Shown one piece after another: positions 3,695 to 27,420 of a DNA stretch of 39,549 bases (its first letter is position 1; every line of letters begins with the position of its first letter). Both the position numbers and the translations under genes were made by a program. The DNA is from Flavobacteriales bacterium. GTDB taxonomy: Bacteria; Bacteroidota; Bacteroidia; Flavobacteriales_D; Sanyastnellaceae. The stretch lies in the NCBI GenBank assembly GCA_022428285.1, contig JAKMCX010000109.1:1-39549 (forward strand), written 5' to 3'. The notes under the pieces were generated by a model. It saw only the letters and a list, made by a program, of their open reading frames with translations, had not been told where the DNA came from and did no database searches.

Positions 3695-6600
3695 TCATTC
3701 CGCGCAGGATTGACCGTACAAAGCCAACAAAGCCAAGATGTCATTGGCAGAAACCGTGTCGTCTCCCGTAATGTCCACCGTGCATGCCGAGGAGCATCCA
3801 AACTCCGTGAGGACGGCAAGGATGTCTGTGGCGCCGTAGAAGCCGTCGCCATCCAAGTCCGCTGGACAGGGACTTTCCCAGCAGCTGTATTCGCATGTGC
3901 CGTCGGGTTCAGACGCTGCAGGATCGAAGTTGCAAGCGGTCAAGTCTGTGCATCCCGAAGCCCCATTCAAGGGCAAACAAAATCCTCCTCCTGGGCCTGA
4001 AGTAAAAGCAATGCCAGCCGCGTTGCTGTCGGCCACTGACCAAAATTCCTGCCCTCCGATGGAATTTACCGCGAGGTTGCCTTCCATGCCGCAAACGGCT
4101 CCTGCAAATCCGTTGCCTCCGAGGTCACTCAGCAAGACTTCATAGCAACCGTGCGCCAGGCACAAAGTGTCCAAGGTCGCTTGTTCAAGTTGGAAATGTT
4201 GACGGCGGTGCCAGGTGGTGCCCGATGAGTCTGCGATGGCCCATGCGGATTCCATGGGCTGACAATCTGCGGTGGTGACCACCACGACAGGCCCAGTGCC
4301 ATTGCGGTGCTCCCAGCGGACGCCGAGCGCATCGTTTTCTGAAATGGCATCGAATCCCGGTGTCAAATCTCCTTCGGACAAGCCGCCATGGAGTCCGACC
4401 ACATCGATGATGCGGACGGCCAATTCACTTTGGTGTTCTACTGCATCCCTTTCGACATCGGGCCACGGCAAGTGCGCCTCTTGATTCGGGGCCAGCAGCA
4501 TGCCATAATGGACGGTGTCCGTGCCGTTCCACAACAGCGATACAGCAGCCAAGGTGTCTTGGCCTGCATTGCGCATGGTGGCGGTCACATCGAGTGGTCC
4601 GGAGCAGGATTCTGCCTGATGCCCTTGAATTCCAATCAAGGCTGCATCCCTCGCAGGAGGCGTAAACAATGGTGCCCGCCACAAACCGCTCCCATAGGTC
4701 GCCAACAGCAATTCGCCCGTCGAGGACCGCACACCTAGATCGCTGCACAGCACTTCTGGAAGACCAGGTTTGTATGGGATCCAAAGGCTGGAGCCGGCTG
4801 TGAGGACGTAAACCCCTGCATCCGTGCCGGCGTAAAGGTCTCCGCTGGCCTCGTGAAGGGCCAAGGTGTTTACTGGCAATGCGGGGAGCCCCTCCCCTTT
4901 ATCGGTCCATGTATCGCCGCCATCGTTGGTTTTCCACAAGCGTTGGCCCAGTTCATACCCGCCGAAACCCACCCAAAAAATGTCGGGATTCATGAAGTCC
5001 ATGGCCACATCGAGGATGGGCAAACCCGGCAACCCCGGCAGCGGCGACCAACTCTGGAGGTCATGTGTGACAAAACCGAATGTGCCACGGGCCACCACGG
5101 CAGTGCTGTCATCAGAAGGTGCCAGGGCGAGCACTTCCATTTCTGCGCCGGCCAATGCGTTGGACTGCTGCCAAGTTTCACCGTGGTCATCGGTCCAATA
5201 AAGGCGGTGTTTGGCGATGAATATTCGATCGGGATTTGATGGGGAAAAGGCCATCGGGGTGTTCCAGTCCCCCCTTTCGTTGACGCCTTCTCCATTGCTG
5301 GCCACCCAGAGTTCCCAGGTCCAACCGCCGTCGAGCGAACGGTGGGTCTTGCCGAAATACTCCGCGGCGATCATGGTGTCGGGTTCATTGGGGTCAATGA
5401 GGCAATGGAAGCCATCGGCGCCCAGTACTTGTGCATGGACGTCATCTGCGAACAGGTTGATTCCGTTGTCCTGCCAACCCGAAATCAGCCGGTCTGGCCT
5501 GCTGTTGGCGAACCCCAAATTGTAGACTTGGCCGACATTCAACCCCTCACAAAGCGGTTCAAATCCGCTGTTTGTTTTGCGTGAAATTCCGCCGTCGTGG
5601 GCGCTGACCCATGTGCTGCTCCCTGGCACAAAGCCCAGGGCATGGTGGTCGGCATGGACAAAATCGGCGTCTTCTTGTCCAAACCAATGGCCAATACAGG
5701 ACCATTGCGCGCCGCCATCTGTGGACTCCCACACATTAACGCCTGCGGCGATGATGTGCTGCTCGTCCATGGGGTCAATGGCCAGTGCGAGGTCATAAAA
5801 TCCCTGACCACCGAAGTCTGCCCCAGAGTAGGTCCAGCCCAAGAGGTTGGGCAAATCGGGTACCTCGGCATAGGTCTGGCCACTGTCTTGGCTCACGTAG
5901 AACCCTTTCAGGCCTTGAGAACCGTTTTTGGCCGCAATGGCAGCCAGGACAGATGGATTGGAGACCGAAGCTGCCAGCGTGTAACGGCTCACAGAAAAGG
6001 ATGAAGGCAAACCTTCGGCTGCGGTCCAGCTTCTCCCCCCATCTGTGGAGCGCAACAATTCACCAGGCCGCATGGCCGCATGCCACACTGCTGAGTCGCC
6101 GGGATGTGGAATCAAATCCGAACAAATGCCGGGTTGGGTCAAATCAAAGGATGTCCCGTTGTCTTCGCTCAGCCATATGCCGTCTGATGTGGCCACCAAT
6201 ATGTGGTCCAGTGCGCCCATTTTTCGGTGCACGCGGCTGCACGTAGCCGCATCTGAGAGTTCAAAAGTGAGCCCGGTGGTTTGCCAAGTCTCTCCTAAAT
6301 CTGAGGTGGACATGAGGCCAACACCATAGGCGCTTCCGAAATCGGAATCGCCTGTAGCGGCCAGGATGCTCAATGTGTCATCGGGGTGCAGTGCGACGTC
6401 TGAGACGCCCATTCCAGCCCAATCTTGCGTGCCCAGTAGGTTCCAATTTCGCCCTGAATCAGTGGACCTCCACAGCCCCCCGCTTGGGGCGCACGCCAAC
6501 CAATGGGTGGTGTCATGGGGGTCGATCACCACACGGTTCACCCGGCCTGCTCCTCCAACCAAGGGGGCGCCGGAAGGCACCGCTTTTTGCCACAAGGCCT

Positions 6601-6940: not shown

Positions 6941-7038
6941 CTTGGTTTTCGGTCGCCACCTGAAGTTGTGCCTGTCTATGGACAAGCGGCCTTCCCGAGG
7001 GCCCAAGTGGAGGCCCAAGGGGAGGTTAATGTCGTCGA

Positions 7039-9987
7039 TTAATTTGAACAGGCCATGCCAAAAGTGGCCAGCGCCATCAAGATGTCGCTGGCGGCCACCA
7101 TGCCGTCGCCGTTCAAATCGGGTTCGCCACATTCCGCCTGGCAACCAAAGGCGCCCAGCATGACCAAAATGTCAGCAGCTCCCCGCAGACCGTCGCCATT
7201 AAAGTCGCCAGGACAAACGGGTTCCTCCTCGTCGCAAATGCCGTTCTCGTTGGCATCATTCAGGCACCGGCCCAAACAGTCCACGGTAGATACACCATCG
7301 ACCATGGCATCTGGATACAGGTCTTCTGGAGTAGCGCAACTTCCATTGTCCAATGTGGCCATCGGGTTGTAGTTGCAATAGTTCTCATTGGTGCAGCCGG
7401 CGCAGCTGCTGAATTCACAGGAGCTGTCGTCGTCGGTGGCTTCTGCATCGAAATTGCAGGCCCCTGAATCGGTGCACCCCATTTGTTCTTCTTCATCGCA
7501 GATGCCGTCACCATCGGTGTCGTTGAGGCACAGGTCGTCACAATCGACGTAGCCCTTGTTGTACAGGTCTACTGGGAAGAGACAAGTGCCATCGTCAATC
7601 ATGGCGCTGGGGTCGTAATTGCAAGCGTTTTGTGCAACGCATCCCGAACAACTGGAGTAATCGCATGAGCCATCGGATACCCACGCATCGGCATCGTGGT
7701 TGCATGCTGCAGGATTGATGCAGCCAGCACATGAAGTGTAGTCGCAGCTGCCATCATCAATGGTGGCCTCGCCCAGAAAGTTGCAGGAAACGGGATCCAT
7801 GCAGCCGCTCACTTCTTCTTCATCGCAGACCCCGTTGGCGTTCACATCGTTGTAGCATGTGCCCTCGCAATCCACAAAAGGAGATGGGTGAAGGTCTTGG
7901 ATAAACAAGCACGTTTCGTTTGAAGCCTGGGTAAAGGCCTCTTCGAAGTTGCAGGCCTCGCTGTCCATGCAGCCGAAACAGTCAAATTCGCAACTGCCAT
8001 CATCAGCATCTGCGTTGGCATTGTAGTTGCACGCCTGCGGAATGGTGCACCCATCAATTAGGGTCAGTCCGGAGCGGTCTTCTCCCACCCCTGACATGCC
8101 CTCTCCTTCGCAACTGGCAAAGTCACAGGCACCCACCTTGTATAGGTCGGCATCGGGGTCGTAGTTGCAGGCAAAGCCCAATGGACATGCAGCGCAAGTC
8201 ACAAAGTCACAGCTGCCGTCGTCGCTGTTGGCGGATGGGTCAAAATTGCAGGCCTTGGGCGAGGTGCAGCCCTCGTACATGCACGCTTGGTTGATGTTGG
8301 CACAAGCCTCGTAATTGTCTGCTGCCTCATCGGTGCAGCCCGTGATGCGCAGCGCAGGTGTGAAGTTGTTCGTGCTGCACAAATCGATTTGACCCTCGCG
8401 GTCTACTCCAGCAATCTGGAGCTCTGAATTCGAAAACGTGTTGTTCAACAGACTCGAAGCCATGTCGGCTGTCTTGGTGTAGGCCACGCCGTGCAATTGC
8501 AAGGTGCAATCTGTCATGGTGAATGCGTCAGCAGGCTCTCCTGCATGCAGGTTAACGGCCTCCCCTCCCGCATTTTCAAACAGACAAGATTCAACGGTGG
8601 TGACATCAGCTGAGGACATGTCGTTGGACACTTTCAAGCCGGTTTGGTTCTCTTTGAACCAACTGTTGGATACCGAAAGGTTTCCAGAATGCTGCAATAC
8701 GCCTTGATCAAAACCGGTCACCCTGACGTCTTCTAAGTCTGTGGAATGGCGGGCAATAATCCCAGCCGTTTCCAAGGAGCCATTGCCGGAAATCACGCTG
8801 TTCTTGACCGTGAGTCCTTCAGCATTGCTCAAAACTTCGATGGCACTTCCGGATTCTGAATTGACCCGAATGCCGTCAATTGTGGGGTGGCCGCCCGTAA
8901 CGACGATGCCGTCCAAAACAGATTCTACATCGCGCATGGCAGCATCGGTTCCAGTCAAACCGACATTGGCGCCCACCAGGTGGACGCTGTTGCCCACCGT
9001 GATGGGGCCTTCATCGTAGGCTCCGGGTTCGAGCTTAATGGTGGTGTTGTCTTCCGCTACGTCGACAGCGCTTTGTACCGACATGCCTGGAAAGACCGCC
9101 ATGTCCTGGCTGATCATGCTGTACGACACCAAAGTTTGAATTTCTGCGCCAAGGCTGGCTGCAATGCTCCGAACATTGTCATTGTGAACGAGGATGCAAC
9201 CTGTGAGGTCATCCCCGGGAGCTTCCAGTAAGTATTCGAAGCCCTCTGCGGTCATGCTGATGGGGAATCCGCTGCCCATGCCCACGGGGATTTCCACTGG
9301 ATCAATTTGGATAATAACCCCTCCTCCACCGAGGTTTTGCGGCCCCTCTAAATCGAGGTTTCCAGCAAATGATATGGCGTTGACTTCTTGGTCATAATAG
9401 TTGGACTCCATAATGGCGATGTCGCCGAAACCATTGCCCGAGCTGGTGATGTTTTCGATGAGCACATTTGAACAGGTACTGAGGGCCAATCCAAAGCCTG
9501 TAGCGCTGTTGCTGACGGTTATATTGCTCAGCGTGTTGACGCTGGGTCCGATCAATCCATTGAGGTCGATGCAAGTCTTGGTCGATTCTGTGACAACAAT
9601 GTCTTGCAGAGTTAGGCCTGTAATTCCAGGTTCGCTGTGCACTGCATAGGCGTTGTTGGCGCCAGCACCTACAATGGTCAAGTCCTTTAAAGTGATGTTG
9701 TCGCTAGACAGTGTGACTCCCCATCCATCCATCGTGGATACGTCAAGGATGGTCGTTCCATTGGGGTCGCCCGACAGGGTCATGGGAACCGATATGCTCA
9801 CATGTTCTATGAATCTGGCAGCTGCCAATTGCAGATGGTCACCGGCAGAGATGTCTTGCATGGCCGCACCTATGTCTTCGTATTCAAGTCCGGATGTGAC
9901 GTTGTATACGGGCGCGATGGGTTGCACTTGGGCGAAGGCACCTGGCAACGCGAGAAGAAGTGCTAGTATTACAATTGTTAGTCGCAT
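7039..9987 (-). CDS. Secreted beta-helix protein with 10 Cys-rich repeats and dockerin-like C-terminus
   Basis: The protein has 982 residues with a clear signal peptide (MRLTIVILALLLALPGAFAQ). Residues about 25-545 are a right-handed parallel beta-helix of the NosD/pectate-lyase type, with turns such as GVTLSSDNITLKDLTIVG, YAVHSEPGITGLTLQDI and AIEVLSNAEGLTVKNSVISG. Two long halves each start with a 'SAVDVAEDNTTIKLEPGAY' type entry turn. Residues about 550-920 hold ten units of the CTDxxACNYxxxAxxDDGSC type. Three thrombospondin-3-like inserts such as CLNDTDGDGICDEEE, which probably bind calcium, lie among them. The last 60 residues form a double EF-hand module (DFNGDGLRGAAD, DLNGDGMVAASD). 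The gene is a paralogue along its whole length of the next upstream gene (10133-14689), differing mainly in repeat number. A surface adhesin or matrix protein is the likeliest role. Confidence 0.85.
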   Translation of the reverse strand: MRLTIVILALLLALPGAFAQVQPIAPVYNVTSGLEYEDIGAAMQDISAGDHLQLAAARFIEHVSISVPMTLSGDPNGTTILDVSTMDGWGVTLSSDNITLKDLTIVGAGANNAYAVHSEPGITGLTLQDIVVTESTKTCIDLNGLIGPSVNTLSNITVSNSATGFGLALSTCSNVLIENITSSGNGFGDIAIMESNYYDQEVNAISFAGNLDLEGPQNLGGGGVIIQIDPVEIPVGMGSGFPISMTAEGFEYLLEAPGDDLTGCILVHNDNVRSIAASLGAEIQTLVSYSMISQDMAVFPGMSVQSAVDVAEDNTTIKLEPGAYDEGPITVGNSVHLVGANVGLTGTDAAMRDVESVLDGIVVTGGHPTIDGIRVNSESGSAIEVLSNAEGLTVKNSVISGNGSLETAGIIARHSTDLEDVRVTGFDQGVLQHSGNLSVSNSWFKENQTGLKVSNDMSSADVTTVESCLFENAGGEAVNLHAGEPADAFTMTDCTLQLHGVAYTKTADMASSLLNNTFSNSELQIAGVDREGQIDLCSTNNFTPALRITGCTDEAADNYEACANINQACMYEGCTSPKACNFDPSANSDDGSCDFVTCAACPLGFACNYDPDADLYKVGACDFASCEGEGMSGVGEDRSGLTLIDGCTIPQACNYNANADADDGSCEFDCFGCMDSEACNFEEAFTQASNETCLFIQDLHPSPFVDCEGTCYNDVNANGVCDEEEVSGCMDPVSCNFLGEATIDDGSCDYTSCAGCINPAACNHDADAWVSDGSCDYSSCSGCVAQNACNYDPSAMIDDGTCLFPVDLYNKGYVDCDDLCLNDTDGDGICDEEEQMGCTDSGACNFDAEATDDDSSCEFSSCAGCTNENYCNYNPMATLDNGSCATPEDLYPDAMVDGVSTVDCLGRCLNDANENGICDEEEPVCPGDFNGDGLRGAADILVMLGAFGCQAECGEPDLNGDGMVAASDILMALATFGMACSN
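7222..8340 (-). repeat. Coding array of ten Cys-rich CTDxxACNY units
   Basis: Ten degenerate units of roughly 30-45 codons each contain the pattern C-T-D/N-x-x-A-C-N-Y-x-x-x-A-x-x-D-D-G-S-C. They are linked by SCxGC segments or by three VDCxGxCxND...GVCDEEE inserts. The evenly spaced cysteines suggest each unit is a small disulfide-stabilised, Asp-rich fold. The repeats are diverged at DNA level, so this is an old expansion, not a recent slippage event. Confidence 0.8.
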
Positions 9988-10006
9988 GACATCGGGTTCT
10001 TAGCTA

Positions 10007-10014
10007 CAAATATA
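10007..10014 (-). promoter_or_regulatory. -7 promoter element of the 982-residue beta-helix gene
   Basis: The minus strand reads TATATTTG, an exact TAnnTTTG match, 20 bases before the ATG at 9987. It lies between the terminator of the upstream paralogue (10081-10107) and the gene, so the two paralogues appear to be separate transcription units. No clear -33 TTG was found at the expected distance. Confidence 0.45.
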
Positions 10015-10080
10015 GCTATTTAATCGATGTTTTATATAGTTTGATGGGGATTCCTACAAGATTTGTCGGTTTTGACACAT

Positions 10081-10107
10081 AAAAAAGGGCCGCATTCGCG
10101 GCCCTTT
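10081..10107 (-). terminator. Rho-independent terminator of the 1518-residue beta-helix gene
   Basis: On the minus strand a perfect stem AAAGGGCCGC/GCGGCCCTTT with a GAAT loop is followed directly by six T-sequence bases. It sits 25 bases downstream of the stop codon at 10133. The symmetric A/T flanks would also let it act on plus-strand transcripts. Confidence 0.9.
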
Positions 10108-10132: not shown

Positions 10133-13100
10133 TTATGGGCAGAAGGTGCCAAAGTATGTCAGCATGGCCAGCACGTCAGAAGCGGTGACCAATCCATCAC
10201 CATCCAGATCAGGTTCCCCGCAATTGGATTCGCAGCCATAAGCAGCCAACACCACAAGCACATCTCCCGCGGTCCGAACGCCATCATCATTGAAGTCGCC
10301 TAAACACGCGTCATCGCCATTGCAAATCCCATCCTGGTTGTCATCATTCGGGCTCACAGTACCGTCAGGGTTACAAGTGGCACATGGTGTATCGGCATAC
10401 ACACATGAGTCATCATCTTCAGTGGCGGCTGGATTGTAGTTACACGCGGTTTCGTTGAGGCATCCACCCACCTCGTCTTCATCGCACACTCCGTCTTGGT
10501 CAGTGTCATTGATGCAATTGCCGTCGCAGTCGAGGTACGTTTCTTCTGGATACGCACATGACCCGTCGTCCACAGCGGCGGTCTCTACATAATTACAAGC
10601 CGAAGAATCGGTACAACCTGTTTCATCTTCGTCACAGACTCCGTCTCCATCGCTGTCATTGAGACATGCTCCGAAGCAATCGACGTAGTCTTTGCCGTAG
10701 AGGCTGATTGGCGTAGTGCAAGAGCCATCGTCTGTCAGCGCACTTTCGATGTAGTTGCAAGCCGTTGGTTCGGTGCATCCAGAGCAGCTGGAAAACTCAC
10801 ATGATCCATCGTCAGTGTCGGCTGAGGACACATAGTTGCACGCCGATGGATCGGTGCAGGCACTCAATTCATCTTCGTCACAAATGCCATCGCCGTCTGA
10901 GTCATTGAGGCAAACTCCACCACAGGTCAAATTGGTGACATTGTACAGATCGAGAACGTAGATGCAGCTCCCGTCATCGGTCGAAGCTCCAGGTATGTAG
11001 TTGCAGGCTTCCGGGTCTGTGCAGCCTTGGCACGCTGTGTAATTGCACGATCCATCGTTGATGGTTGCGTTGGGATTAAAGTTGCATGCTCCAGGATTTG
11101 TGCATCCTCCGCATGAACTGTATTCACAAGAGCCGTCGTTGTCTGTAGCGGTGTCCGAATAGTTGCATGCGCCAATGTCGTTGCAACCCCCTACTTCTAG
11201 TTCATCACACACACCGTCCTCGTCTACATCTGAAGTGCAAGAGCCATCACAATTCAGGTAGCTCTGTTCTGGGTATTCACAGGTTGTATTGATGGTCGCA
11301 GATGGGTCGTAATTGCAGGCAGTAGATTCTGTGCAACCTGCACAACTTAGGTAGTCACAATTGTTATCAGGCTTGGTGGCTGTTGCATCGTAGTTGCATG
11401 CCGTGACATCCATGCAGCCGGTGCAGGAGACCAAGTCACAACTCCCGTCGTTTTCAGTGGCCCCTGCATTGTAGTTACACGCATTGGAATTGGTGCAACC
11501 CAATACCTCGTCTGCGTCACAGACACCGTCTACATCGATGTCCTCTAAGCAATCTCCATTGCAGTCTACAGCATCAGAGCCGTAAATGTCTATGGGGTAA
11601 ATACATTCTGCATCAATGGTCGCAGCAGCATCATAATTGCAGGCGGTGCTGTCCATGCATCCCGCACATGCTGAGTAGTCGCACAAGCCATCATTGATTT
11701 CGGCAGTGTTGTCATAATTACAAGCCACCGGGTCTGTACAACCAAGGCAAGACGTGTATTCGCAGGACCCGTCATCTGAAGTTGCCAGTCCGCTGAAATT
11801 ACATGCGCCTTCTTCCGTGCATCCTAAGATTTCGTCTTCGTCACACACCCCGTCGAAGTCTGCATCATTGATGCAGTTGCCGTCGCAGTCGACATTGGCA
11901 TCGCCGTAAATGTCACTTGGATAAGTGCATGTCGAGGTGGACAATGTAGCGGTTGCATCATAATTGCATGCGGCCTGGTCTGTGCAGCCTGCACAGCTGT
12001 CAAAGTCGCAATCCTCTTCTGCTCCGAAGTTGCATGCAAATGGAAGGGTGCATTCTGCCATGAATGCCATTCCTGCCGGTTGCCCATAAGTGCATCCAAA
12101 GGTCAACTGCGGGAGGATGTCAGCATCGTAGTTGGTTGCCGCAGGGTCACCACAGCAACTCAAATAGTCACACAGCGATCCATCGTGAATGGTGGCTTCA
12201 GAATCATAGTTGCAGAACCCCTCAATGGCGCATCCTGCACAAGTGGTGTATTCACAGCTCCCGTCATCATTTGCTACATCGGGATCGTAATTGCAAGCAC
12301 CGGAATCAGTGCATCCACCGTAGATACAAGTTCCATCGTTGTAGGTGGCATCCGGATTGTAGTTGATGGCGGATTGATCCATACAGCCGAGCACGCGGCA
12401 AGATCCATCGTCGATGGTCGCCTCGGCATCGTAATTGAAAGCATCGGGGTTGGTGCAACCCCGGCAGCTGGTGAAATCACAATTGTCGGCATTCAGTGTG
12501 GCTGTTTCGTCGTAGTTACAGGCCCGGGGGTTTGTGCATCCAGAGCAGCTGGAATATTCACATGTTCCCAAGTTGAAGTTTGCTGTTTCGTCGTAGTTGC
12601 AGGCCCCGATATCGGTGCAGCCGTAGAAGAAGCAAACACCATTGCTGAAGTTGGCATTGGGGTCGTAGTTGTCCGCATTGGGGTTTGTACACCCTGAAAT
12701 GAGACAAGTTCCGTCATCATACAAGGCTGAAGAATCATAATTCAAAGCCGCTTCATTGGTGCATCCTCGGCATGAATCAAATTCGCAACCTCCTGATTCT
12801 ACAGTGGCTGAGGCGTTGTAGTTGCATGCAATCGGGTTCAAACACCCTGAACAAGACTGAAACTCACAGGAGCCATCATCGGCTGCAGCTGCTGCTGAGT
12901 AATTGCATGCGCTCGGGTCGGTACATCCTCCATAGAGACAGTTGCCCGAGTTGATTGACGCGCATTCTTCGTAGTTCACCGCAGCAGGGTCATCACACGC
13001 GTCAATGGTGATCACGGGGTCAGAAAAACTGTTGTCTTCACAGAGCTCAATGAGGCCAGGTGTGTCCAGACCCACAATTTGCTCCTCTGATTCGGCATAC

Positions 13101-14689: not shown

Positions 14690-14704
14690 AATTAAAATTA
14701 CATT

Positions 14705-14726
14705 CAAAAATAACGTCACAAAAATA
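14705..14726 (-). promoter_or_regulatory. Two candidate -7 elements before the giant beta-helix gene
   Basis: The minus strand contains TATTTTTG twice (14705-14712 and 14719-14726), both exact TAnnTTTG matches, in a very A/T-rich gap shared with the divergent 151-residue gene. The copy further from the ATG gives a more usual leader of about 20 bases. No good -33 element was found for either. Confidence 0.4.
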
Positions 14727-14862
14727 CATTGACCTACTTTTTTAGTGTCTTAAGGTGCCAATATCTTCTTTTTGGTCATTATTATATGACTTACACAAAT
14801 TTATAATAGCCCCAAACTCACGTTCAGTTGAAAAATGGTACCTTCAGGAAACAATAATTATC

Positions 14863-15315
14863 ATGATGCTACGAACCATCCTTGCTGCTGCGGGTTTTGT
14901 GCTCGCCTTTAACGCTCAGGCACAGTTTTCAATCAATGCTACTGCCTATTCTACAAGGTGCTCAGGCAGCCCCACAGGCCTCGTTGAAATTGAGTCCGAG
15001 GGCGCAGTAGGTGAGGTCACCATTTTAACGAACATAGACTTGTCCATGCTTGAAGCGGGGGATTACACCATCTCTGCAGAGGATGGGGCAGGTGAGCAAG
15101 CTTCTGTGAGCTTTACCATTCTGGACCACCCTGCTACTTGTGGATGCACCTACCCGACCGCATTCAACTTCGACAATGCTGCAGAAGTGGACAACGGTTC
15201 TTGCGTGTTCTCTTCCGACCAAAGCTGTTTGGCTGACATCGTCCCTGATGGCATCGTGGGCACCAACGACTTGCTTCAACTCCTGGTCGAGTTTGGGGTC
15301 GTCTGCTCAGAATAA
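14863..15315 (+). CDS. Small secreted protein: SprB-like domain, one Cys repeat, half dockerin-like module
   Basis: The protein has 150-151 residues, with adjacent ATGs at 14863 and 14866. A signal peptide (MLRTILAAAGFVLAFNAQAQ) is followed by about 70 residues like a SprB/T9SS adhesin repeat (RCSGSPTGLVEIES, then LEAGDYTISAEDGAG). Next comes a single CTYPTAFNFDNAAEVDNGSC unit, and the end (DNA 15220-15315) is one EF-hand-like repeat, ADIVPDGIVGTNDLLQLLVE. Its loop lacks the usual Asp/Asn at position 3, and the second EF-hand of the larger proteins is absent. The architecture is a miniature of the giant divergent neighbour. It could be a secreted partner or competitor of those proteins, or a decayed copy; the intact frame and signal peptide argue for a functional gene. 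Confidence 0.75.
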   Translation: MMLRTILAAAGFVLAFNAQAQFSINATAYSTRCSGSPTGLVEIESEGAVGEVTILTNIDLSMLEAGDYTISAEDGAGEQASVSFTILDHPATCGCTYPTAFNFDNAAEVDNGSCVFSSDQSCLADIVPDGIVGTNDLLQLLVEFGVVCSE

Positions 15316-16503: not shown

Positions 16504-16509
16504 TGCCGA

Positions 16510-16918: not shown

Positions 16919-19900
16919 TCAATGGCCCAACCTCACAAGTTCCTTTCGTCGGACTTTTCCGTCGTTCCCATTGCCAGTCAAAACATAGGATCCAGAAGCT
17001 CCTGTAGCTACTTCCAAGTGCACCTCTCCCCTCTCATTGGCCAAGGTTTCGGAGACCACCTTTCCGGTGGCGTCAAGCAGGCGCACCTTGGTGCCCTGCT
17101 CCCACCCTGCGGCATGCAATTGCTGAGCAAATGGAACGGGCCAGGCCAATATGCCCGCGCCTTGACCTGCTTCATTCACAGAGGAAGTGGCGACATCATG
17201 GATGATCAAGTCGTCCACACCGGCTTCTATGAGCGATCCGCCATCAAATTCGAGTCCTTGGTCTGGACGCAAACTGTCCGAAGCCGTGAATTTGATTTGG
17301 AAGGCATCTGTCAGTGGGACATAATCGGTGACTGCAAAAGCATGACGGCGCCATGAAATGTCTTGTGTCAGCGTTTCTTCGATCTTCACCCAAGAATCAC
17401 CACCGTTGCCGCTGACATAAACCTGCCACCAATCAGCTCCTGGATTGGCTCCTGACGCAGGTGCATTGACGTACCAACGCCAGTAGCTGAGCACCGGAGA
17501 GACCATTTCGCTCAGGTCGATGGGCTCGGACTGAAGTGTTGTACTTCCTGCATCCACATCGTTGGAACCGATGCCTGCGTCCGCGCCCGGGCTAACGCCG
17601 GTGATGAAAGCGAAAATGCCATCGCCTGGCGTGTGGTCTTCTGAAGGTGCACAAATGGTGCTCTGATCGCCGGGGTCGCTGTAGGAGCCCACAGGAATGG
17701 TCGATTCCCATTGGCCCGTCGTGGCATTGTCTTCGGGAAGACCAATCTGCCAAAACCCAAAGTCTGAATAGTCGTCTTGATCGTCAATCAAAATCGGGGT
17801 GAGTCCCACAATGGTGTTGAAAGGCAGGTTTGGATTGGCTGAATCATCTGCGCTGTAAGGGTTGATGGCGCTGATGGCTCCGTAGATGTCGGTAATTCCA
17901 AAGTAGTACTCTACCACGGTCCCCTCCTCTTGAGCAGGGATCACACCCGTGAAGTCACTGCCTTCTTGGGGCTCCATGGTCATGGATGTCCAATCCGCTG
18001 TGCCAGAAGTTCGGTAATACATCTCGCAGCTGCCGAAGTATTGGCTGAATGGAAACAACACGAGCGCATTGGCATCAATGGCGATGCTTTCACCTGCGGC
18101 GGTGTAGCCTTCTGCCTCATGTTCAATCTCAACATTGCTGAAGAGGGTGATGCCGTGCATCCCGAACCCTTCCAAAATGGCGGCTCCATTGGGTGTGCCA
18201 TCAGACAGGTCGGCATTGTCGTCATCGGCTTGCAAGGCGTCCAGAAGTACTTCTACAAACGCCTCGCCTTCATTACCATTGGGCGTCGTGGCCTGTTGAC
18301 CATCGAAGATTTCGGTGAAAAGCGTCATGGATTGGTTCCAATCCCCTCCCAAAAGAAGGTGGGTGTCGTACCATGCTCCGCAAATGATTTCTCCATCTGC
18401 GTGCACCTCTCCGACCAAGTCTTGTGGGTACACCTTGGGGTTCTCATCGTACCTCCTGATGTAGAATCCGGGATTGTCAGAATAGCATCCGGCCCCGAGT
18501 ACGGGGTTGTCGGTCAAGCTAATGGCCCACCAATCGGCATAGCCCTCGTTCATGGCTCCATTGTTGAATCCGCTGCCCAGCCCCTCGTAGTAGAGGTCGT
18601 TGATGCCATGACCGTATTCGTGAAACACCACGTCCGAAACCATGGAGAATGCATTGCAGCCATCGCCTTCGGAATAGAAGTTGATGCTGGGAGAACCTGG
18701 TGTGTAGAACGCGTTGCAGGTTCCCGACACATCTACCACTGTGGGCATGGAGAAGTCCAGGCCAGTAAAGCCAGGCAACCATTGCTGCATGTGGTCGTGA
18801 ATGCGGTTTACACTGTGGTAGGCGCTGAGCTCCCTGATGGTCGCGTTTTCATCAAAACTCACCACGGAATCGCCCTCAACGGTCAACTCAAGTTGCGGAG
18901 TAACGCCATTTGTTGTCACCGTGCTCCAAAGACCTTGGAGTTGAAAGGACAAATCTTGGGCTCCCGGAGACTCGAAGTTGATCATGCCGCCAGCATCGGT
19001 GTACTGTGTGCCCCCGCTGCTTGTGACCTGAAGGTTGGACAGGCCCACTTCTGTAGTGGCTTCAAAAGGCTGTGTCAAATGCACGGTCCCGGTGATTTGG
19101 CAGCTCAGCATTTGCATCAACGCTGGTGGGCCCATGGGGCGTGGCTTGGCCTTCTCCTCCTTTCCTTTGGGGTGGCCCAGGTGGTGGACTTGGTTGATGC
19201 GTTCCAACACCTCACCTGTCTCGAGGTCAATCCAGGTGGCGTATTGAACAGGTATGCCATCGGACGATATTCCAAAAACCTGAATGCTGCGCGCAGGGCG
19301 GAATGCAATGGTTCGCCGCTCCGCAGAACGCTCCATCCACGGGATCAAAGATTCACCGCCCAATTCGGTGGACACATCTGAGAGGGCCAAGTCAGCGGTT
19401 GCCGCTGAAACCACATCCTCTTCATCCAGCGCGATCATGTCCTCGGGCCATTCAGCCTGTGGAAAGCACTGTGCTCCCCACATGACCACCCCCTGCTCTG
19501 CCAACTTCACCACGAGTTCAGTGCCGATTACCGGCCTGCCTTCAACGGTTTGCTCAGCGCGGTACAAAGTGTGCTTGCCCATTTCGGCGGACATCCAATC
19601 ACTGGTGGTTACCGGCCAACCGGCTGCCTCTAGCTGGTCTTCGAGCCATGCAGTGGGACCCGCTGTTGGAATGGCTGGACCATAGGCCCGGTGTACGGTT
19701 CCTGTGGCAGGATGAAATTGTACCTGCCAACGCGGATGCTGCGTCTTGAAGTTGGTCCAGAACGGGGCGTTTCGGCGCATGGCCTGTAGGTCTTCTTTGG
19801 GCTGGCTCCATGTGGCCGGCATCCTGACCTCGGCGGGATCAAAATGAAACGACGGCGTGGAGACTTGACCAAAACCGCTGATGTTCATCAACAGCATGAG

Positions 19901-21067: not shown

Positions 21068-21074
21068 TAGACTG

Positions 21075-21103
21075 TTGTAAAAACAACCATTCAAGTATTG
21101 TTG
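21075..21103 (+). promoter_or_regulatory. Candidate promoter of the TonB receptor unit
   Basis: A TTG at 21075-21077 is separated by 18 bases from TATTGTTG at 21096-21103, which matches the TAnnTTTG -7 box at all but one position. The implied leader of roughly 90 bases contains the hairpin at 21129-21169. The element lies just after the DAHP synthase stop. Confidence 0.4.
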
Positions 21104-21128
21104 CGTTAGAATGAGGCGTTATCAAACA

Positions 21129-21169
21129 AGAATGGGGCATTCGCAAACCGGAAGGTTTCGCCCCATTCT
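21129..21169 (+). promoter_or_regulatory. Strong leader hairpin with a GNRA-type loop
   Basis: A perfect 10-bp outer stem (AGAATGGGGC / GCCCCATTCT) encloses an inner AAACC/GGTTT stem closed by a GGAA tetraloop. There is no U-run after it, so it is not a typical terminator. It lies between the candidate promoter and the TonB receptor start, where it could stabilise the mRNA or act as a regulatory leader; it could also help end the DAHP synthase transcript. Confidence 0.5.
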
Positions 21170-21200
21170 AGAGGTCATAGTATTGCACCGCATTCACACC

Positions 21201-23585
21201 ATGATGAACTACCGTTTTCTACTCTTGGGTCTGTTGTCAATCGGTTTGTCGGACCGGGGTCAAGGGCAAGAAGCACAAGTGGTGCTCAGTGGATTTATCG
21301 AGGACGCTTCCAGTGGCGAACAGTTGCTTGGCGCTACAGTTTGGCATGCCCAGAGTGCTTCGGGCACCACGGCCAACCTATACGGTCACTACAGCATTAG
21401 CCTCCCTCTTGGGCCACAGGAAGTGCTCTTTTCATACCTCGGTTACACGCCTCAGAAATTGGAAATCAACCTTTCTGAGGATTTGAAGCTGGACATCGCC
21501 TTGGTAGCAGGGATGCAATTGGGTGAAGCTGTGGTTGAATCCGGAGCGTCCGATCGCATTGAAGAGCGCGTTCAAATGTCCAGGATTGACATTCCAGTAG
21601 AGCAGATAAAGCGGCTTCCAGCCATTGCGGGTGAAGTGGACCTCCTCAAAACCCTCCAATTGTTGCCCGGCGTTCAATCTGGTAGCGAAGGGTCCAGTGG
21701 GATTTACGTCCGCGGTGGCAGTCCCGATCAAAACCTGATTATGCTCGACGGTGTTCCGCTGTACAGTGTGAGCCACTTGTTTGGTTTCTTCTCGGTGTTC
21801 AATGCCGATGCCGTGCGCAACATCTCCATCATGAAGGGGGGCTATCCGGCACGCTTTGGTGGACGCCTGAGCTCCATCCTCGAAGTCACCATGAAGGAGG
21901 GCCACAAAAAGGAATTTCATGGTGCCGGATCCATCTCCATGCTCGCATCGAAGCTGACCTTGGAAGGCCCCATCGTTGAAGACAAAGCGTCCTTTATGAT
22001 CAGTGGACGGAGGACCTACTTGGACCTGTTGCTTAACCCGATCATCAGGAGCACAGCCACCGAGGGTTCCGAAGTAGATCCCGCCTATTTCTTTCACGAC
22101 TTGAACGCCAAGGTCAATTGGCGGCTTGGAGCAAAAGACAGGGTGTACCTCAGCACCTTTCAGGGGCTGGATGATTTTGGCATCAGGACAAAGGAGACCT
22201 ATGACAACGAAACCGAGGAAATTGACCTCGGTCTGGATTGGCGCAACTCCGTGCTGGCACTCCGTTGGAACCACGAATGGAGGGCCAACCTGTTCAGCAA
22301 CGTCACTTTGATGAAGAGCAGGTATGATTTCAATACCGGATTTGACGTCAGTTCGACAAGTCAGGAAGGCGATTCCAGCCTGACCGAGCGGTTTGCTTCC
22401 TTGTACAACTCCGGAATTCGCGATGTGGGCGGCAGGATTGATTTTGATTACACGCCCAACAACCGGCATTTTGTCCGCTTTGGTGGCAATGTCACCCGGC
22501 ACAGGTTTCAACCGGGTGCGACCCAGGCCATTTTAGATTTTGGGCAAGATTTCAGCCTGGACACCACCATAGGTTCGCCCAACCTGTTTTCGACGGAATC
22601 CTTTCTCTATGTCGAGGATGAAATTGATTTGGGCGGTAACCTCAAGGTCAATGTGGGAGCGCACACTTCTGCTCTTTTTGTAGAAGGCGTGAGCTATCTG
22701 TCCTTCCAACCCCGACTGGCGCTCAACCGACGCCTTTCCAATGGCCTTGCACTAAAGGCGTCCTATGCCGAGATGACGCAGTTCGTCAATCTGCTCACCA
22801 ACGAAGGATTGACCCTGCCCACCGACCTCTGGCTCCCCTCCACGGCACGCATCCGTCCTCAAGAGAGTTGGCAGGCTGCCGTGGGTGCGGCAAAGTCAAT
22901 GGGTGAAATCGAAGTCAGCATTGAAGGGTATTACAAGGAGATGGATGGTCTCCTCGGCTATAAAGAAGGGGCGAGTTTTGGCTCTGCCGCATTCAACTTT
23001 GATGGCACGACCACTTGGGAAGATGAAGTCACACAGGGAGAAGGGCGCAGCTATGGTACAGAGCTCCTTCTGCAGAAGAAGCAAGGACGAACTTCAGGTT
23101 GGCTGGGCTACACCTTGAGCTGGACCGACCGCCAATTTGATGACGTCAACAACGGAAACCGCTTCCCTTTCACCTATGACCGCCGGCATGACATATCCTT
23201 TGTGTTGGTGCATGAATTGACCGAAAAATGGACCCTGAGTGGCACATGGGTCTATGGCACAGGCCGGGCGTTGACCTTGGACGAAGTGACATACTCCAGT
23301 GTGGTGCCGGGCTATCAAGGCGGGCTGAATCCTGTTGATTTCGACATCCCTTCAAACCGCAACGCGTTTCGCATGAGCCCTTATCACAGAATGGATTTAA
23401 GTGCTACACGAACCAAGTTTGATGAGCAGGGTGAAAGGTCCCTCGTCCTCAGTGTTTACAACGTCTACAACAATTTGAATCCATTCTTGGCTCTGCCAGG
23501 CACCTCCGATGACGGTACCCCCATCATCCGAGAGTTTGGTTTGTTTCCATTTATTCCCTCAATAGCATGGCAATTCAGCTTTTAA
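21201..23585 (+). CDS. TonB-dependent outer-membrane receptor with carboxypeptidase-regulatory-like domain
   Basis: The protein has 794 residues from the ATG at 21201 (a second ATG is adjacent), beginning with a signal peptide ending near GQGQ. Residues about 28-110 are a CarboxypepD-regulatory-like domain (LSGFIEDASSGEQLLGATVW, VLFSYLGYTPQKLEI). The plug follows (DLLKTLQLLPGVQ, GIYVRGGSPDQNLIMLDGVP, MKGGYPARFGGRLSSILEVT), then a 22-strand-type barrel ending in WQFSF with a terminal Phe. This is the SusC-like form used for energy-driven uptake of large substrates. Its stop overlaps the DUF4249 lipoprotein gene by 19 bases, and the pair is followed by a secreted metallopeptidase-like gene, which hints at peptide uptake. 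An upstream ATG at 21111 in the same frame is not used here because no signal peptide follows it. Confidence 0.93.
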   Translation: MMNYRFLLLGLLSIGLSDRGQGQEAQVVLSGFIEDASSGEQLLGATVWHAQSASGTTANLYGHYSISLPLGPQEVLFSYLGYTPQKLEINLSEDLKLDIALVAGMQLGEAVVESGASDRIEERVQMSRIDIPVEQIKRLPAIAGEVDLLKTLQLLPGVQSGSEGSSGIYVRGGSPDQNLIMLDGVPLYSVSHLFGFFSVFNADAVRNISIMKGGYPARFGGRLSSILEVTMKEGHKKEFHGAGSISMLASKLTLEGPIVEDKASFMISGRRTYLDLLLNPIIRSTATEGSEVDPAYFFHDLNAKVNWRLGAKDRVYLSTFQGLDDFGIRTKETYDNETEEIDLGLDWRNSVLALRWNHEWRANLFSNVTLMKSRYDFNTGFDVSSTSQEGDSSLTERFASLYNSGIRDVGGRIDFDYTPNNRHFVRFGGNVTRHRFQPGATQAILDFGQDFSLDTTIGSPNLFSTESFLYVEDEIDLGGNLKVNVGAHTSALFVEGVSYLSFQPRLALNRRLSNGLALKASYAEMTQFVNLLTNEGLTLPTDLWLPSTARIRPQESWQAAVGAAKSMGEIEVSIEGYYKEMDGLLGYKEGASFGSAAFNFDGTTTWEDEVTQGEGRSYGTELLLQKKQGRTSGWLGYTLSWTDRQFDDVNNGNRFPFTYDRRHDISFVLVHELTEKWTLSGTWVYGTGRALTLDEVTYSSVVPGYQGGLNPVDFDIPSNRNAFRMSPYHRMDLSATRTKFDEQGERSLVLSVYNVYNNLNPFLALPGTSDDGTPIIREFGLFPFIPSIAWQFSF

Positions 23586-24514
23586 AACCCTTTGCTTTCT
23601 TGGCTGCAGCAGCAGCTTTGGTAGGCTGTGAAAAATGGGCTGACGGCGTGGTCAGTGAGGTGGAGTTTCCTCCTCATACACCTACCCTAGCGGCTACAGT
23701 GAACTTAATTTCTGGTGAATCCAAGGCGGTTGCTGCGCTCTTTCAAACGTCCAGCACACTCACCGCCGGCGGATCGACCATTCCTGCTGGCGTCACCGCG
23801 CGCATCAAAAAAGACGATGAAGTGGTCTTGTCTTGGTCTACCGGGGACACCGCCCTCGTGGGCGAAGGCTGGGCGGGCCGCACCATGCACGTGTTGGACT
23901 TGGATACACCACTTTCGTTGCCGCTGGGCCAGTTAGAGCTCGAGGTCGAGGCCCCAGGGTTTGAAATGTTGACCGCGGTTGCTGTTCAACCTCCCACACC
24001 TGAGTTGACCGTGGACTATGTTCAAGGCGTCGACACCACAACTGAATTTGGTGAGGCGGTGATTTTAGATCGTTTCAAGTTGAATCTCTTGAACCGCGCC
24101 GGGGTGAGGGACGTATATGGACTCCAATTGCAGGAAGGCTATGTGTACTCTGGCGATACCGTCTGGAATCAGGTTGGCCTCGGTGAATTTGATGCCGTTT
24201 TGGAACCGCGCACCGTATACAATGACGCATGCCTTTGTCTTTTGGTGGATGACCAGGGAGTGGATGCGCATTCTTTTCAAAACATCACTTTGGACCGCAA
24301 GCGGTGGGAATGGTCTTCCGAAGAAGGCGAAGAAGTACCGCTCAGGCTCAAGGTGACTTTGATGGATGCGCCCATGGCAGATTTCTACGGTTCATTAGAG
24401 AACCATTGGAATGCTGAGAACAACCCTTTTGCCAACCCATCTTCTATTTACAGCAATACCAGTACAGGGTTTGGGATATTCGGCCTTGCCTCAGAGGTAT
24501 CCTTTAACTGGTAA
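23567..24514 (+). CDS. DUF4249-family outer-membrane lipoprotein (TonB receptor partner)
   Basis: The protein has 315 residues with a lipoprotein signal peptide: hydrophobic AFLAAAAALVG followed by Cys21 in a LVGC lipobox. The mature part matches DUF4249 proteins in layout: a first Ig-like beta domain (TPTLAATVNLISGESKAVAALFQTS and LELEVEAPGFEMLTAVAVQP), then a larger beta domain with DRFKLNLLNRAGVRDVYGL and FYGSLENHW near the end. DUF4249 genes commonly lie beside SusC-like receptors and are thought to be their surface-exposed partners. The start codon lies inside the receptor gene (19-base overlap), which supports coupled translation. The ligand is unknown. Confidence 0.85.
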   Translation: MAIQLLKPFAFLAAAAALVGCEKWADGVVSEVEFPPHTPTLAATVNLISGESKAVAALFQTSSTLTAGGSTIPAGVTARIKKDDEVVLSWSTGDTALVGEGWAGRTMHVLDLDTPLSLPLGQLELEVEAPGFEMLTAVAVQPPTPELTVDYVQGVDTTTEFGEAVILDRFKLNLLNRAGVRDVYGLQLQEGYVYSGDTVWNQVGLGEFDAVLEPRTVYNDACLCLLVDDQGVDAHSFQNITLDRKRWEWSSEEGEEVPLRLKVTLMDAPMADFYGSLENHWNAENNPFANPSSIYSNTSTGFGIFGLASEVSFNW

Positions 24515-24543
24515 ATGGGCGGGTGCAATCGTTACCTTGGGAC

Positions 24544-27420
24544 ATGTTCCGAACCATTTCAAGGGCTATTGCGCTGTCCATCATCGTTCTGTGTGCACCA
24601 TCAGCATGGGCTCAAAGCGCCACGCTAGAGGTCACCGTTGAAGGCCTGTTTGCAGGTGCCAATGCCACTTTGACCCTCGAGCGGGGCGTTGGTGGTCTGC
24701 ACGACGCAGCCCTCACAGGGTCAGGAGAAACCCAACCTGTTGGGCATACTTTTCAGGTGGATGCTGGCCCTTGGTTGCTGTCCATAGATGCACCCGGCTA
24801 CTTCACGCCTGCCGCCCAAACAGTGGAAGTCAGCGGCAATGCCATGGTCACGTTGGACGTGGCACTGCTGCAGGGAGACAGCACCTCCTATACTTTTAAT
24901 TGGGAAGAAGATGGAAGCTATGCTGGACATGCCACCGAGTTTGTTCCAGCCGCTCCTCCTGTGATTGAGGTTTTGGGTGAGGCCCATGAAGTGCCCGCGG
25001 GGTTCAGCGCGCAGACTTTGTTTCAGCAGTTTGGCTTCGTGCTGGATGACCATGAACTGTCATGGACCACGGATGATGCTTTCAAACTCCATGAGACGGT
25101 TTCTTCCTTGCCGTATCCACGGGTGAATGCCGATGAGAATGGCACACCGGTCACGGCCGTTTGGCGGTTGACCGAGGACATGCTCGATGGAGACTACATG
25201 GTAGAGACCATCGCCGGAACAGAGGTCATTACGGTGGCCAAGGATGCATTTACTTACGCCGCTCCGCTGGTGGTCAACTTTGACGGCGATCAAGGACAGT
25301 TTTTTAGCCGCAGGCTCTTCAAAGCCCTGCTCTCACATCTCACAGACGAAGGGACCCAAAGCAATTTGGTCCAAAGCATTGCCACCGATCGATATGGAGT
25401 CGAGTTTATGGTGCCCAGTCCTGAGCTCGAGGATTTAATGAGCGAGACACAAACCAATTTCCAGCCCTTTCCAGCTTGGGAGAAATTGCAAATCATGGGA
25501 CTGCTCGAGGAGTTTCCCGTAGGCATGAGAAAGCAGGACGGCCTCTCAAAACTTGTGCGCCGGATCAATGGTCAGCCCAACCCCTTCTACCCGACTGCCC
25601 CCGCCATTGCCTGGACAGGAATGGAAACCATCGAATGGATGGAGAGCGGTTTCGCCAATTTTTCGATCGACTACATCCACCGTTTGGTGCTGCATGAGAA
25701 GGCACACTTTCTGTGGGAATACACCTTTGATGACGACCTGAGGTCGGATTGGACAGGCCTCGGCGGATGGTTTGAGGACCCCAATGCACCCAGCGGCTGG
25801 TCGAGCACCTTGACGACGGAATTCGTGAGTGCTTACGCGCATGCCATGAACCCCAATGAGGACATGGCAGAGAGCATCGCCTATTACATTTCAAACCCTT
25901 TGGTGCTGTCGACCCACGCTCCCGACAAATATGACTTTATCCGCGACCGGGTCATGCACGGCTCCCGATACGTTGCCCTGATCGCTGAGGAATTGACTTT
26001 TGAGGTCTTCAACTTGTTTCCTGACTACACCTATCCAGGTAAAATTGTGGGCACCCAAGTTCAGGTTGTGGGCAACCCCGAAGATGACAAGGAGCTCACC
26101 CTTACAGTGCACTTGCACAGCGACGACCCCAATGTGGATGGCGCCGCCAGTGGTCAGGTGCGTTTTGTGAGCGCGGTCGGCACCATTTTCGACATGTGGT
26201 TGGCCCCGCAGAATGGTTCTAGTGACTCCATTCTCACCGGGACCCTCACACTGAACAAACACATGAAGTCAGGCTGGTGGAACTTCGATGGACTCCACCT
26301 TTGGGATGCCGTGGGGAACGACCGGTATGAGAGCCCCGCTACCATAGGATTGCGGATGTTTCTGAACAACCCTTTGGAAGACATCACCCCCCCAGAATAC
26401 ATGGATGGGAGCTTTGTTATGGAAGAGGCGGCTCAAATCGAAGTGGGCAATGGTGCTGATGGACCGGGCACGGTTCCTGGCATCACTGTGAGCTATGATA
26501 CTTGGGACAAGATTCCACTCAGCCGAGGATTGACCCGCGTCTCTTTTCCGACCACTGACCCAGACTACGGACACCGATACTCCATGGACATCCAATCCAA
26601 TCAATTCGAGTCAAACGGTTACGAGGAGGTCAAGCACCACGAAATGGAGCTGCCCGTGCCCCATTATTTTCCGACGGGTCACTACACCGTGAATTTCGCG
26701 GGTGCCGACGATGTCGCTGGCAACAGCTCGCTCATATACTTCACTGGAGACCCCAACTACTCCAATGCAGATGGCGTTCACGTTTTTGCAGAAGACCGGG
26801 ATTCGGTCTTTATGGAAACCACATATCCCGATCTGCTGCCGCCAGTGGTGGATCTGAACAGCTTCGTCATCGATGCGGCGCCCACCAATCCAGAGGCGCC
26901 CAATGGAGAAACGCTGGTCACATTTACGCTCACAGTCCAAGACACCAGCGGGTTTGATGACTTTGCTTCAGGCATCAAAAACCTGACCTACACCTTGAGG
27001 AACCCTGTGGGCGAGGAATTTCACCAAGATGCATGGGAAGAATTCGGAGGCGCCAACTTCTATTACGCTGTGTATCCACCTGAGGGCGCCAACGAATGGA
27101 CGGAAGTGACCTTGACCACCCTTTTGCCGGCAGGATCTATACCCGGAACCTGGGGGGTCTCGGCCATCAGCGTTCGGGACCGCGCGCTCAATGTGAAGCG
27201 CTACAGCTTTGTGGAGTATGTGCAATTCGTGTTGGACGAAAGCCCCTGCCCTGCTGACTTGGACGGCAACGGCCAAATTGGCGCTCCTGACTTGTTGATG
27301 GTGCTCGCTGAATTCGGCTGCTTGCAAAACTGTGGGATTGCAGACATTGACGGCAACGACCAGGTGGATGTCGGTGATGCTTTGTTGTTCCTCGCGGACT
27401 ATGGAACAGCGTGTGACTGA
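24544..27420 (+). CDS. Large secreted protein with HExxH metallopeptidase motif and dockerin-like C-terminus
   Basis: The protein has 958 residues from the ATG at 24544, which starts the signal peptide (MFRTISRAIALSIIVLCAPSAWAQ). Residues 25-110 are a carboxypeptidase-regulatory-like beta domain. Residues about 240-460 contain a putative zinc peptidase core: RLVLHEKAHFLWE with His384, Glu385 and His388, followed by EFVSAYAHAMNPNEDMAESIAYY (residues 426-448). The 'YA...NPxEDxAE' block is the pattern seen in lethal-factor-like and related gluzincin peptidases, where its Glu completes the zinc site. Ig-like domains follow to about residue 895, and the last 59 residues form a double EF-hand module (DLDGNGQIGAPD, DIDGNDQVDVGD). 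The gene starts 29 bases after the DUF4249 gene, in the receptor unit. Protease activity is inferred from motifs only. Confidence 0.8.
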   Translation: MFRTISRAIALSIIVLCAPSAWAQSATLEVTVEGLFAGANATLTLERGVGGLHDAALTGSGETQPVGHTFQVDAGPWLLSIDAPGYFTPAAQTVEVSGNAMVTLDVALLQGDSTSYTFNWEEDGSYAGHATEFVPAAPPVIEVLGEAHEVPAGFSAQTLFQQFGFVLDDHELSWTTDDAFKLHETVSSLPYPRVNADENGTPVTAVWRLTEDMLDGDYMVETIAGTEVITVAKDAFTYAAPLVVNFDGDQGQFFSRRLFKALLSHLTDEGTQSNLVQSIATDRYGVEFMVPSPELEDLMSETQTNFQPFPAWEKLQIMGLLEEFPVGMRKQDGLSKLVRRINGQPNPFYPTAPAIAWTGMETIEWMESGFANFSIDYIHRLVLHEKAHFLWEYTFDDDLRSDWTGLGGWFEDPNAPSGWSSTLTTEFVSAYAHAMNPNEDMAESIAYYISNPLVLSTHAPDKYDFIRDRVMHGSRYVALIAEELTFEVFNLFPDYTYPGKIVGTQVQVVGNPEDDKELTLTVHLHSDDPNVDGAASGQVRFVSAVGTIFDMWLAPQNGSSDSILTGTLTLNKHMKSGWWNFDGLHLWDAVGNDRYESPATIGLRMFLNNPLEDITPPEYMDGSFVMEEAAQIEVGNGADGPGTVPGITVSYDTWDKIPLSRGLTRVSFPTTDPDYGHRYSMDIQSNQFESNGYEEVKHHEMELPVPHYFPTGHYTVNFAGADDVAGNSSLIYFTGDPNYSNADGVHVFAEDRDSVFMETTYPDLLPPVVDLNSFVIDAAPTNPEAPNGETLVTFTLTVQDTSGFDDFASGIKNLTYTLRNPVGEEFHQDAWEEFGGANFYYAVYPPEGANEWTEVTLTTLLPAGSIPGTWGVSAISVRDRALNVKRYSFVEYVQFVLDESPCPADLDGNGQIGAPDLLMVLAEFGCLQNCGIADIDGNDQVDVGDALLFLADYGTACD

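Follow-up and report, generated by a model that had tools for sequence, protein, structure and literature searches.

A cysteine-clasped dockerin tail as a lineage-expanded alternative to T9SS tails in a Flavobacteriales family

The 39,549-nucleotide stretch of Flavobacteriales DNA analysed here (hereafter the window) encodes secreted proteins with two kinds of C-terminus, some ending in T9SS-like tails and others in a short, Cys-flanked module reminiscent of dockerins. What is this second tail, and does it sort the proteins that carry it or dock them? An earlier note, made from the sequence of the window, had placed the module at the ends of five proteins. The pattern is indeed present at all five, four times double and once, in the protein ending at 15315, single.

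3698..3868, minus strand: double Cys-clasped dockerin module, the last 57 residues of a Sortilin/Vps10-like propeller protein
7042..7215, minus strand: double dockerin module, the last 58 residues of the beta-helix protein 7039-9987
10136..10306, minus strand: double dockerin module, the last 57 residues of the Cys-repeat protein 10133-14719
15226..15312, plus strand: single dockerin module, the end of the small secreted protein 14755-15315
27247..27417, plus strand: double dockerin module, the end of the putative peptidase 24523-27420

The five tails align over 58 columns with a Cys at either end. The double tails (proteins ending at 3695, 7039, 10133 and 27420) have a linker with two Cys, and a further Cys no more than three residues from the end; the single module has one loop-helix unit only, with a Cys close to each end. 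The propeller gene extends over about 3695-6940, its start having been picked by eye, and the peptidase matches Peptidase_Mx under the cut-off. The latter lies directly downstream of genes which we take to encode TonB-dependent receptor-like and DUF4249-like proteins (21111-27420 for the whole group), an arrangement as in nutrient-uptake gene sets. Cys repeats of the form GCTDPxACNYDPxATDDDGSC, bearing no family name in the domain scans made, are found in 7039-9987, 10133-14719 (in many copies) and 34721-36607, that is in dockerin-tailed and T9SS-tailed proteins alike, and swamp sequence comparisons.

The module was compared with known families through its sequence and its predicted structure. 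The isolated tail of the protein ending at 10133 passes the Pfam Dockerin_1 model (PF00404; 23.8 bits against a cut-off of 22.9), the full protein yielding 15.9 bits in hmmscan and, with neighbours, 26.6 bits in the genome search. Most other PF00404 matches in the window genome fall under the cut-off. Among 32 scanned tails, taken from the window, Flavobacteriales and Planctomycetota, 25 match Dockerin_1 and 30 match dockerin_GC (NF041540) at E <= 0.01. The dockerin_GC cut-off of 29 bits is passed by three proteins of the window genome, none of them contributing a window tail. Since the window tails score 16.2-21.9 bits in hmmscan (two of the five proteins, that ending at 3695 giving the 21.9) and 18.6-27.0 bits in the genome search, they are relatives and not members of that family. 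The C-terminal position that the model's name suggests as a defining feature of dockerin_GC is shared by the window-genome tails and their relatives.

The AlphaFold model of the tail at 10136..10306 contains two helices, at residues 13-21 and 42-51 (pLDDT 94). When compared with the PDB using Foldseek, it gave 48 matches, of which ranks 1-28 are all dockerin or cohesin-dockerin entries; the best of them, and the sole one at E <= 0.001, is the type II dockerin 2y3n_B (TM 0.80, E 7e-4). Sequence comparison also puts 2y3n_B first, most of the later matches being calmodulins or other proteins with EF-hands. Two loops fitting a loose ligand pattern are present in 25 of the 26 double tails of the window genome, and one loop in single-module tails. 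The type I calcium-ligand spacing originally ascribed to these loops agrees with the matches to the Pfam type I model, but the best structural match is to a type II domain. Judged by profile matches and predicted fold, the tail is a Cys-clasped dockerin, related to the 'GC-type' dockerins.

The cysteines follow an all-or-none pattern. First and last Cys are present in all 26 double modules of the window genome, the linker of which contains two Cys in 21 cases, none in five and never one. Among the best 80 of 232 loci found elsewhere (see below), both terminal Cys occur in 16 of 16 Flavobacteriales tails; in the 64 others they are both present 39 times, both absent 25 times and never single, a co-occurrence whose Fisher value ignores the kinship of the sequences. 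Linker Cys in the same 64 tails number none in 20, one in one, two in 32 and three in 11. This pattern suggests that the N- and C-terminal ends are linked, the first and last cysteines probably bonding to each other and a second pair forming within the linker. An intramolecular clasp is known for some dockerins. A further peculiarity is the lack of Lys and Arg, residues found in the recognition helices of cellulosomal dockerins, from 22 of the 26 double tails.

The other tails of the window were assessed with the T9SS type A model TIGR04183 and with a T9SS model derived from the window genome itself. Three proteins were recognised by both:

411..611, plus strand: T9SS type A-like tail (TIGR04183 22.0 bits, below cut-off; own-genome model 41.6 bits)
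16943..17140, minus strand: T9SS type A-like tail (TIGR04183 22.4 bits, below cut-off; own-genome model 33.7 bits)
34736..34927, minus strand: T9SS type A tail of a kelch/mutarotase-like propeller (TIGR04183 27.8 bits, over cut-off)

Five such tails had been proposed. Those of the proteins ending at 617, 16919 and 34721 stand, one of the three passing the TIGR04183 cut-off in hmmscan, but for the two others the score is about 2 bits (28484) or there is no match at all (32831). The T9SS-model scan bears out the accompanying claim that none of the ten proteins carries both tails: two of the five dockerin-tailed proteins give own-genome matches, weak (7-12 bits) and non-terminal. Between T9SS tails and dockerin tails there is no sequence match.

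The window genome (2.69 Mb in 261 contigs, 90% complete) contains many more copies of the module. A profile built from the five window tails, as the earlier note had proposed, gave 65 matches at E <= 10; with module-bearing frames defined by a domain of at least 10 bits, matches below this being left out, it identified 60 reading frames. In 50 of these the module ends no more than six residues from the stop codon; one of the 50 (C144) is a 57-residue frame without cysteines. The module is N-terminal in seven frames, internal in two (C189 and C4:8874-13043) and cut by a contig end in one. The frame C7:8-1135 has one module at either end. The N-terminal modules directly follow what appears by eye to be a signal peptide (C45:6402, C190, C4:2183, C176, C252, C186 and C167:39243, as also in L166 from another genome), and four of these proteins resemble what we take to be TIGR02145 'major paralogous domain' proteins.

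For comparison, TIGR04183 finds 79 matches at E <= 1 in the same genome, 52 of which pass its cut-off. Within a T9SS set of 70 frames, composed of 69 of the 79 matches plus the protein ending at 28484 added by hand, the dockerin module occurs once. This frame, C4:8874-13043 (loci L054 and L288), appears to be a natural fusion, in which a dockerin-type protein is followed in frame by a second part, presumably GH3-like, with a T9SS tail. Seven of the 50 dockerin-tailed proteins have weak matches to the own-genome T9SS model (up to 13.3 bits), none of them in the tail itself. By a simple rule, 38 of the 50 C-terminal carriers have a signal-peptide-like start, and eight of the remaining 12 have their 5' end cut by the coordinates used. 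Dozens of proteins that look exported thus carry the module.

The bodies to which the tail is attached are varied. A domain scan of 22 of the 50 C-terminal frames found Vps10-like propellers, beta-helices, an alpha-amylase with CBM48, fasciclin, CotH, LTD, lysyl oxidase, VCPO-like, SASA esterase, M43 peptidase and FG-GAP/ASPIC domains; the 22 are not a cellulase set. Homologous bodies bear T9SS tails too. With Cys-rich stretches masked, 21 dockerin-tailed and 27 T9SS-tailed proteins of the window genome have homologous domains, forming 68 pairs at E <= 1e-5. Thirteen pairs, involving nine proteins of each kind, align over at least 200 residues and another 13 over fewer than 100, and many of the 68 have just one domain in common. 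The best pairs are of amylases (47% identity over 617 amino acids), FG-GAP/ASPIC proteins (57% over 407) and fasciclin proteins (69% over 273).

Tail exchange was also followed between genomes. The window peptidase was dropped as an ortholog test, its body having homologues in only nine of 114 genomes of the window family, the window genome included; the GH13 amylase was used since the peptidase is so narrowly distributed. An amylase match was obtained in 151 of 299 genomes of the order, and 90 C-termini, window genome included, were inspected (30 listed loci plus 60 chosen over genera and families among the matches listed). They comprise 30 dockerin tails, 56 T9SS tails, counting L391 although its match lies 47 residues from the end, and four unclassifiable ends (L356 and L373 run into contig ends, L338 and L343 meet a stop too soon). 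Of the amylases inspected, every classifiable one that belongs to another family or to the module-poor genera g146 and g154 fell in the T9SS class, and both kinds of tail occur in genera g1, g2, g141, g143 and g145. A midpoint-rooted tree of 51 GH13 bodies unites all 30 dockerin-tailed rows in one clade (support 99/96) against 21 T9SS-tailed rows, so that a single change of tail is enough for this enzyme; the branches of the dockerin row L411 and of L413 are long. The direction of the change would be from T9SS to dockerin, because four T9SS-tailed rows from other families lie outside the clade. The interchangeability of tails first surmised from the window therefore finds support beyond it, in the 68 body pairs, the amylase C-termini and the GH13 tree.

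Across genomes, the module has expanded within a single Flavobacteriales family, and it is also present in Planctomycetota. In a phylum-wide sample of 296 genomes it was matched in ten at E <= 1e-4, copies being many only in the window genome and one other member of its family. In a sample of 299 genomes of the order (E <= 1e-3), 111 of the 114 from the window family match, and 83 of the 114 have at least 15 scored matches, scoring extending to about 22 per genome. Genera g146 and g154 of this family have 0-2 matches; in other families of the order 18 of 185 genomes match, with 1-4 matches each. A scan of named genomes returned at least 595 pattern matches, of which 232 were confirmed and the best 80 of these examined. 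By title, 16 of the 80 loci are from Flavobacteriales or Bacteroidetes and 64 from elsewhere, 60 of the latter from Planctomycetota or a subgroup of it. The module lies no more than 15 residues from the stop in 78 of the best 80, the exceptions being L142 and L166, the last N-terminal. Phe/Tyr-Gly is found mostly in the Flavobacteriales members and Trp-Gly mostly in those of planctomycetes. Elsewhere in the phylum, two loci (L102 and L105) have dockerin-like repeats inside proteins which also have a T9SS tail, unlike most carriers here. SprA, the one T9SS component looked for, was found in all 15 of the Flavobacteriales carriers searched and in none of 18 Planctomycetota carriers, for which genome completeness is not given.

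We consider it probable that the tail is a portable docking tag, a Cys-clasped dockerin held by calcium-dependent binding to an exported partner. It would have two calcium loops resembling EF-hands, with a helix after each. Enzymes and adhesins that are secreted would each carry one of two tails. For any such protein, with a T9SS tail it would be exported and anchored by the T9SS, and with a dockerin it would be held through calcium-dependent binding to a partner that would itself be exported, plausibly by the T9SS. Binding would take place outside the cell, and both calcium and the disulfides would be expected to matter.

The earlier note had hesitated between such docking and a sorting or anchoring signal, and had counted against its own reading modules common in mid-protein or before T9SS tails, or present in genomes lacking dedicated surface-export machinery. 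Some of this was found, in the form of N-terminal modules, SprA-less Planctomycetota and one protein with both module and T9SS tail. These observations speak against the alternative of a second sorting signal at the C-terminus, to be recognised by the T9SS, another dedicated exporter or a sortase-like enzyme. The module's position at the extreme C-terminus in 50 of 60 frames here and in 78 of the best 80 of 232 relatives, its exchange with T9SS tails on homologous bodies and the presence of SprA in every Flavobacteriales carrier would all suit a signal of this kind, which we nevertheless regard as unlikely, given carriers without SprA, modules at N-termini, a predicted fold that is that of a dockerin and the C4 fusion. 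A T9SS-dependent signal as the common basis, in particular, is disfavoured by the SprA-less carriers. Docking is the more likely function because of the predicted dockerin fold, the N-terminal modules and the SprA-less Planctomycetota.

A docking tag calls for a receptor, and a cohesin-like partner had been suggested. A search of the window genome with the cohesin model PF00963 gave no candidates, and no cohesin-bearing scaffoldin, the mark of a cellulosome, was found there. Five of 33 carrier genomes have a PF00963 match at E <= 0.01, three of them over cut-off. These three (L205-L207) were rejected as partners, since by eye they sit in proteins with dockerin-like repeats of their own and of a different kind.

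A candidate receptor belonging to another sequence family was nonetheless encountered, on association alone. This is a beta domain of about 180 residues, here called A4, that is often present on T9SS-tailed proteins and is common to dockerin-tailed and T9SS-tailed giants. The examined loci of the window genome and its relatives contain 30 copies in 23 frames, five of them (one partial) in a single dockerin-tailed stretch of 3,625 residues. None of the ten members scanned has a Pfam match. The predicted structure is mainly beta, of moderate confidence (pLDDT 81, with two segments under 50); Foldseek found nothing similar at E <= 1e-3, the best 50 of its 1,149 matches include no cohesin, and profile comparison with four cohesin-like domains (hhalign) returned a probability of 0.3%. 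By Pfam, Foldseek and hhalign A4 is not cohesin-like, and a cohesin fold for it is not supported.

The association is seen firstly in copy number. Among the 35 genomes of the family with fewer than about 22 scored modules, A4 and module counts are correlated (Spearman 0.89), and outside the family the module (E <= 1e-3) occurs in 10 of 11 genomes with A4 (E <= 1e-8) against 8 of 174 without it, the two counts having different E-value limits and being scored up to 11 for A4 and to about 22 for the module. As the genomes are related and so not phylogenetically independent, these values are not to be read as probabilities. They do not simply reflect general gene content, since module-poor genera and other families alike possess the amylase; part of the co-expansion could be co-residence, A4 being present in dockerin-tailed proteins of the window genome too.

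Secondly, seven genomes from three other families have a dockerin gene as the immediate upstream neighbour of an A4 gene (G041, G362, G394, G481 and G588 in one, G349 and G329 in one each). In each pair the module ends a protein that we read as beta-helix-like; the long frame that comes next on that strand contains A4, matched at 33-61 bits in six genomes and weakly, at 14-16 bits, in G041, where a clear A4 copy lies 5 kb off. Five of the seven genomes have no other module match, while G394 has two and G329 three. For the rest of the ten genomes (G554, G594 and G618) the stretches examined end short of the module gene. Several A4 proteins of the gene-pair genomes have T9SS tails, for example the neighbour in G349. 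Tandem clusters of A4 genes, some with T9SS tails and some short and without, occur on the contig of the dockerin gene at L417, L430, L438 and L444 (G349:C151 and G329:C4). In the window genome an A4-domain giant with a dockerin end (C3:32124-43383) and a beta-helix-like dockerin protein (C3:51344-53062) are encoded on one strand of a single contig with about 8 kb between them, echoing the pairs of the other families. No A4 was found around the module in the Planctomycetota loci L140-L204.

A more specific version of the docking account, which we advance tentatively and think rather less likely than otherwise, makes A4 a non-cohesin dockerin receptor. A4-bearing scaffolds, exported and anchored by the T9SS, would gather dockerin-tagged enzymes by the dozen, while those A4 proteins that have a dockerin end of their own would serve as second-tier scaffolds. 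The system would have begun as an ancestral dockerin-receptor gene pair, of the kind that other families of the order retain, and would have expanded in the window family while enzymes traded T9SS tails for dockerins.

Slightly less probable than a sorting signal is a partnerless end cap, stabilised by calcium and disulfides, that would protect proteins against proteolysis. Very small, acidic and Cys-paired, and placed on unrelated bodies, the module has the look of such a cap; yet the full dockerin architecture is kept in two phyla, a dockerin gene adjoins an A4 gene in seven genomes and the module has undergone the lineage expansion described above, both in the 50 C-terminal frames and across the family. 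Least credible is a compartment switch by which T9SS-tailed copies would go to the surface and dockerin-tailed ones stay in the periplasm, perhaps tethered: the latter do lack T9SS tails and mostly have ordinary Sec-like starts, and T9SS/dockerin paralogue pairs do exist, but carriers include fasciclin, CotH, lysyl oxidase, Vps10 propellers, M43 peptidase and giant repeat proteins, all usually extracellular.

The docking tag is thus preferred, and the module is a genuine dockerin tag, expanded in this lineage and taking the place of T9SS tails, with hints of a cellulosome-like system and a candidate receptor. T9SS tails are a common basis for counting the exported proteins of Bacteroidota. Were a dockerin tag used instead by about as many proteins, and here 50 frames compare with 52 over-cut-off T9SS tails, such counts would miss a large share of the exported proteins of this lineage. 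If the docking account is true, Flavobacteriales would possess a cellulosome-like assembly built on mostly non-cellulase proteins. The tail-swapped paralogues, and the dockerin gene beside a putative receptor, offer simple, testable pairs.

Several known systems invite comparison. With dockerin_GC (NF041540) most double tails align over model positions 1-67, the window tails differing in scoring below its 29-bit cut-off; no paper naming a GC-type dockerin family was found in the literature searched. With the type I and II dockerins of cellulosomes (PF00404) the tails have in common two calcium loops, acidic positions 1, 3, 5 and 12 and loop-helix repeats. They are set apart by the Cys clasp with its linker pair, by the near absence of Lys and Arg and, at the level of the genome, by the lack of a recognisable cohesin and, among the 22 carriers scanned, of a cellulase set.

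Dockerin assemblies outside cellulosomes are not new, having been proposed in two papers. The 'Planctosome' of Nemodlikiaceae (PMC6461901) is a proposed non-cellulosomal dockerin assembly in Planctomycetes which involves peptidases and LTD and HYR domains; it has recognised cohesins, of which none were found here. In the window genome, LTD (over cut-off) and HYR_4C (below it) are found on T9SS-tailed giants. For Ca. Stygibacter of the Cloacimonadota, PMC8542988 describes proposed C-terminal dockerins on peptidases and glycosidases, together with a cohesin scaffoldin whose C-terminal domain would attach it to the cell surface, a T9SS review being cited. There the cohesin scaffoldin is recognisable, whereas here there is a candidate receptor only, alongside 50 module-ended frames. 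Searching by title and the start of the abstract, we found no paper, in the literature covered, on this tail in Flavobacteriales or in connection with the T9SS; relative to that literature, the scale, the swapping with T9SS tails and the possible new receptor were not found described. The T9SS type A tail (TIGR04183), finally, differs from the dockerin module, which does not match it in sequence, has a predicted dockerin fold, is also found at N-termini and occurs in SprA-less genomes too, but the two have in common their C-terminal placement and the families of body that they end, and have been interchangeable in evolution.
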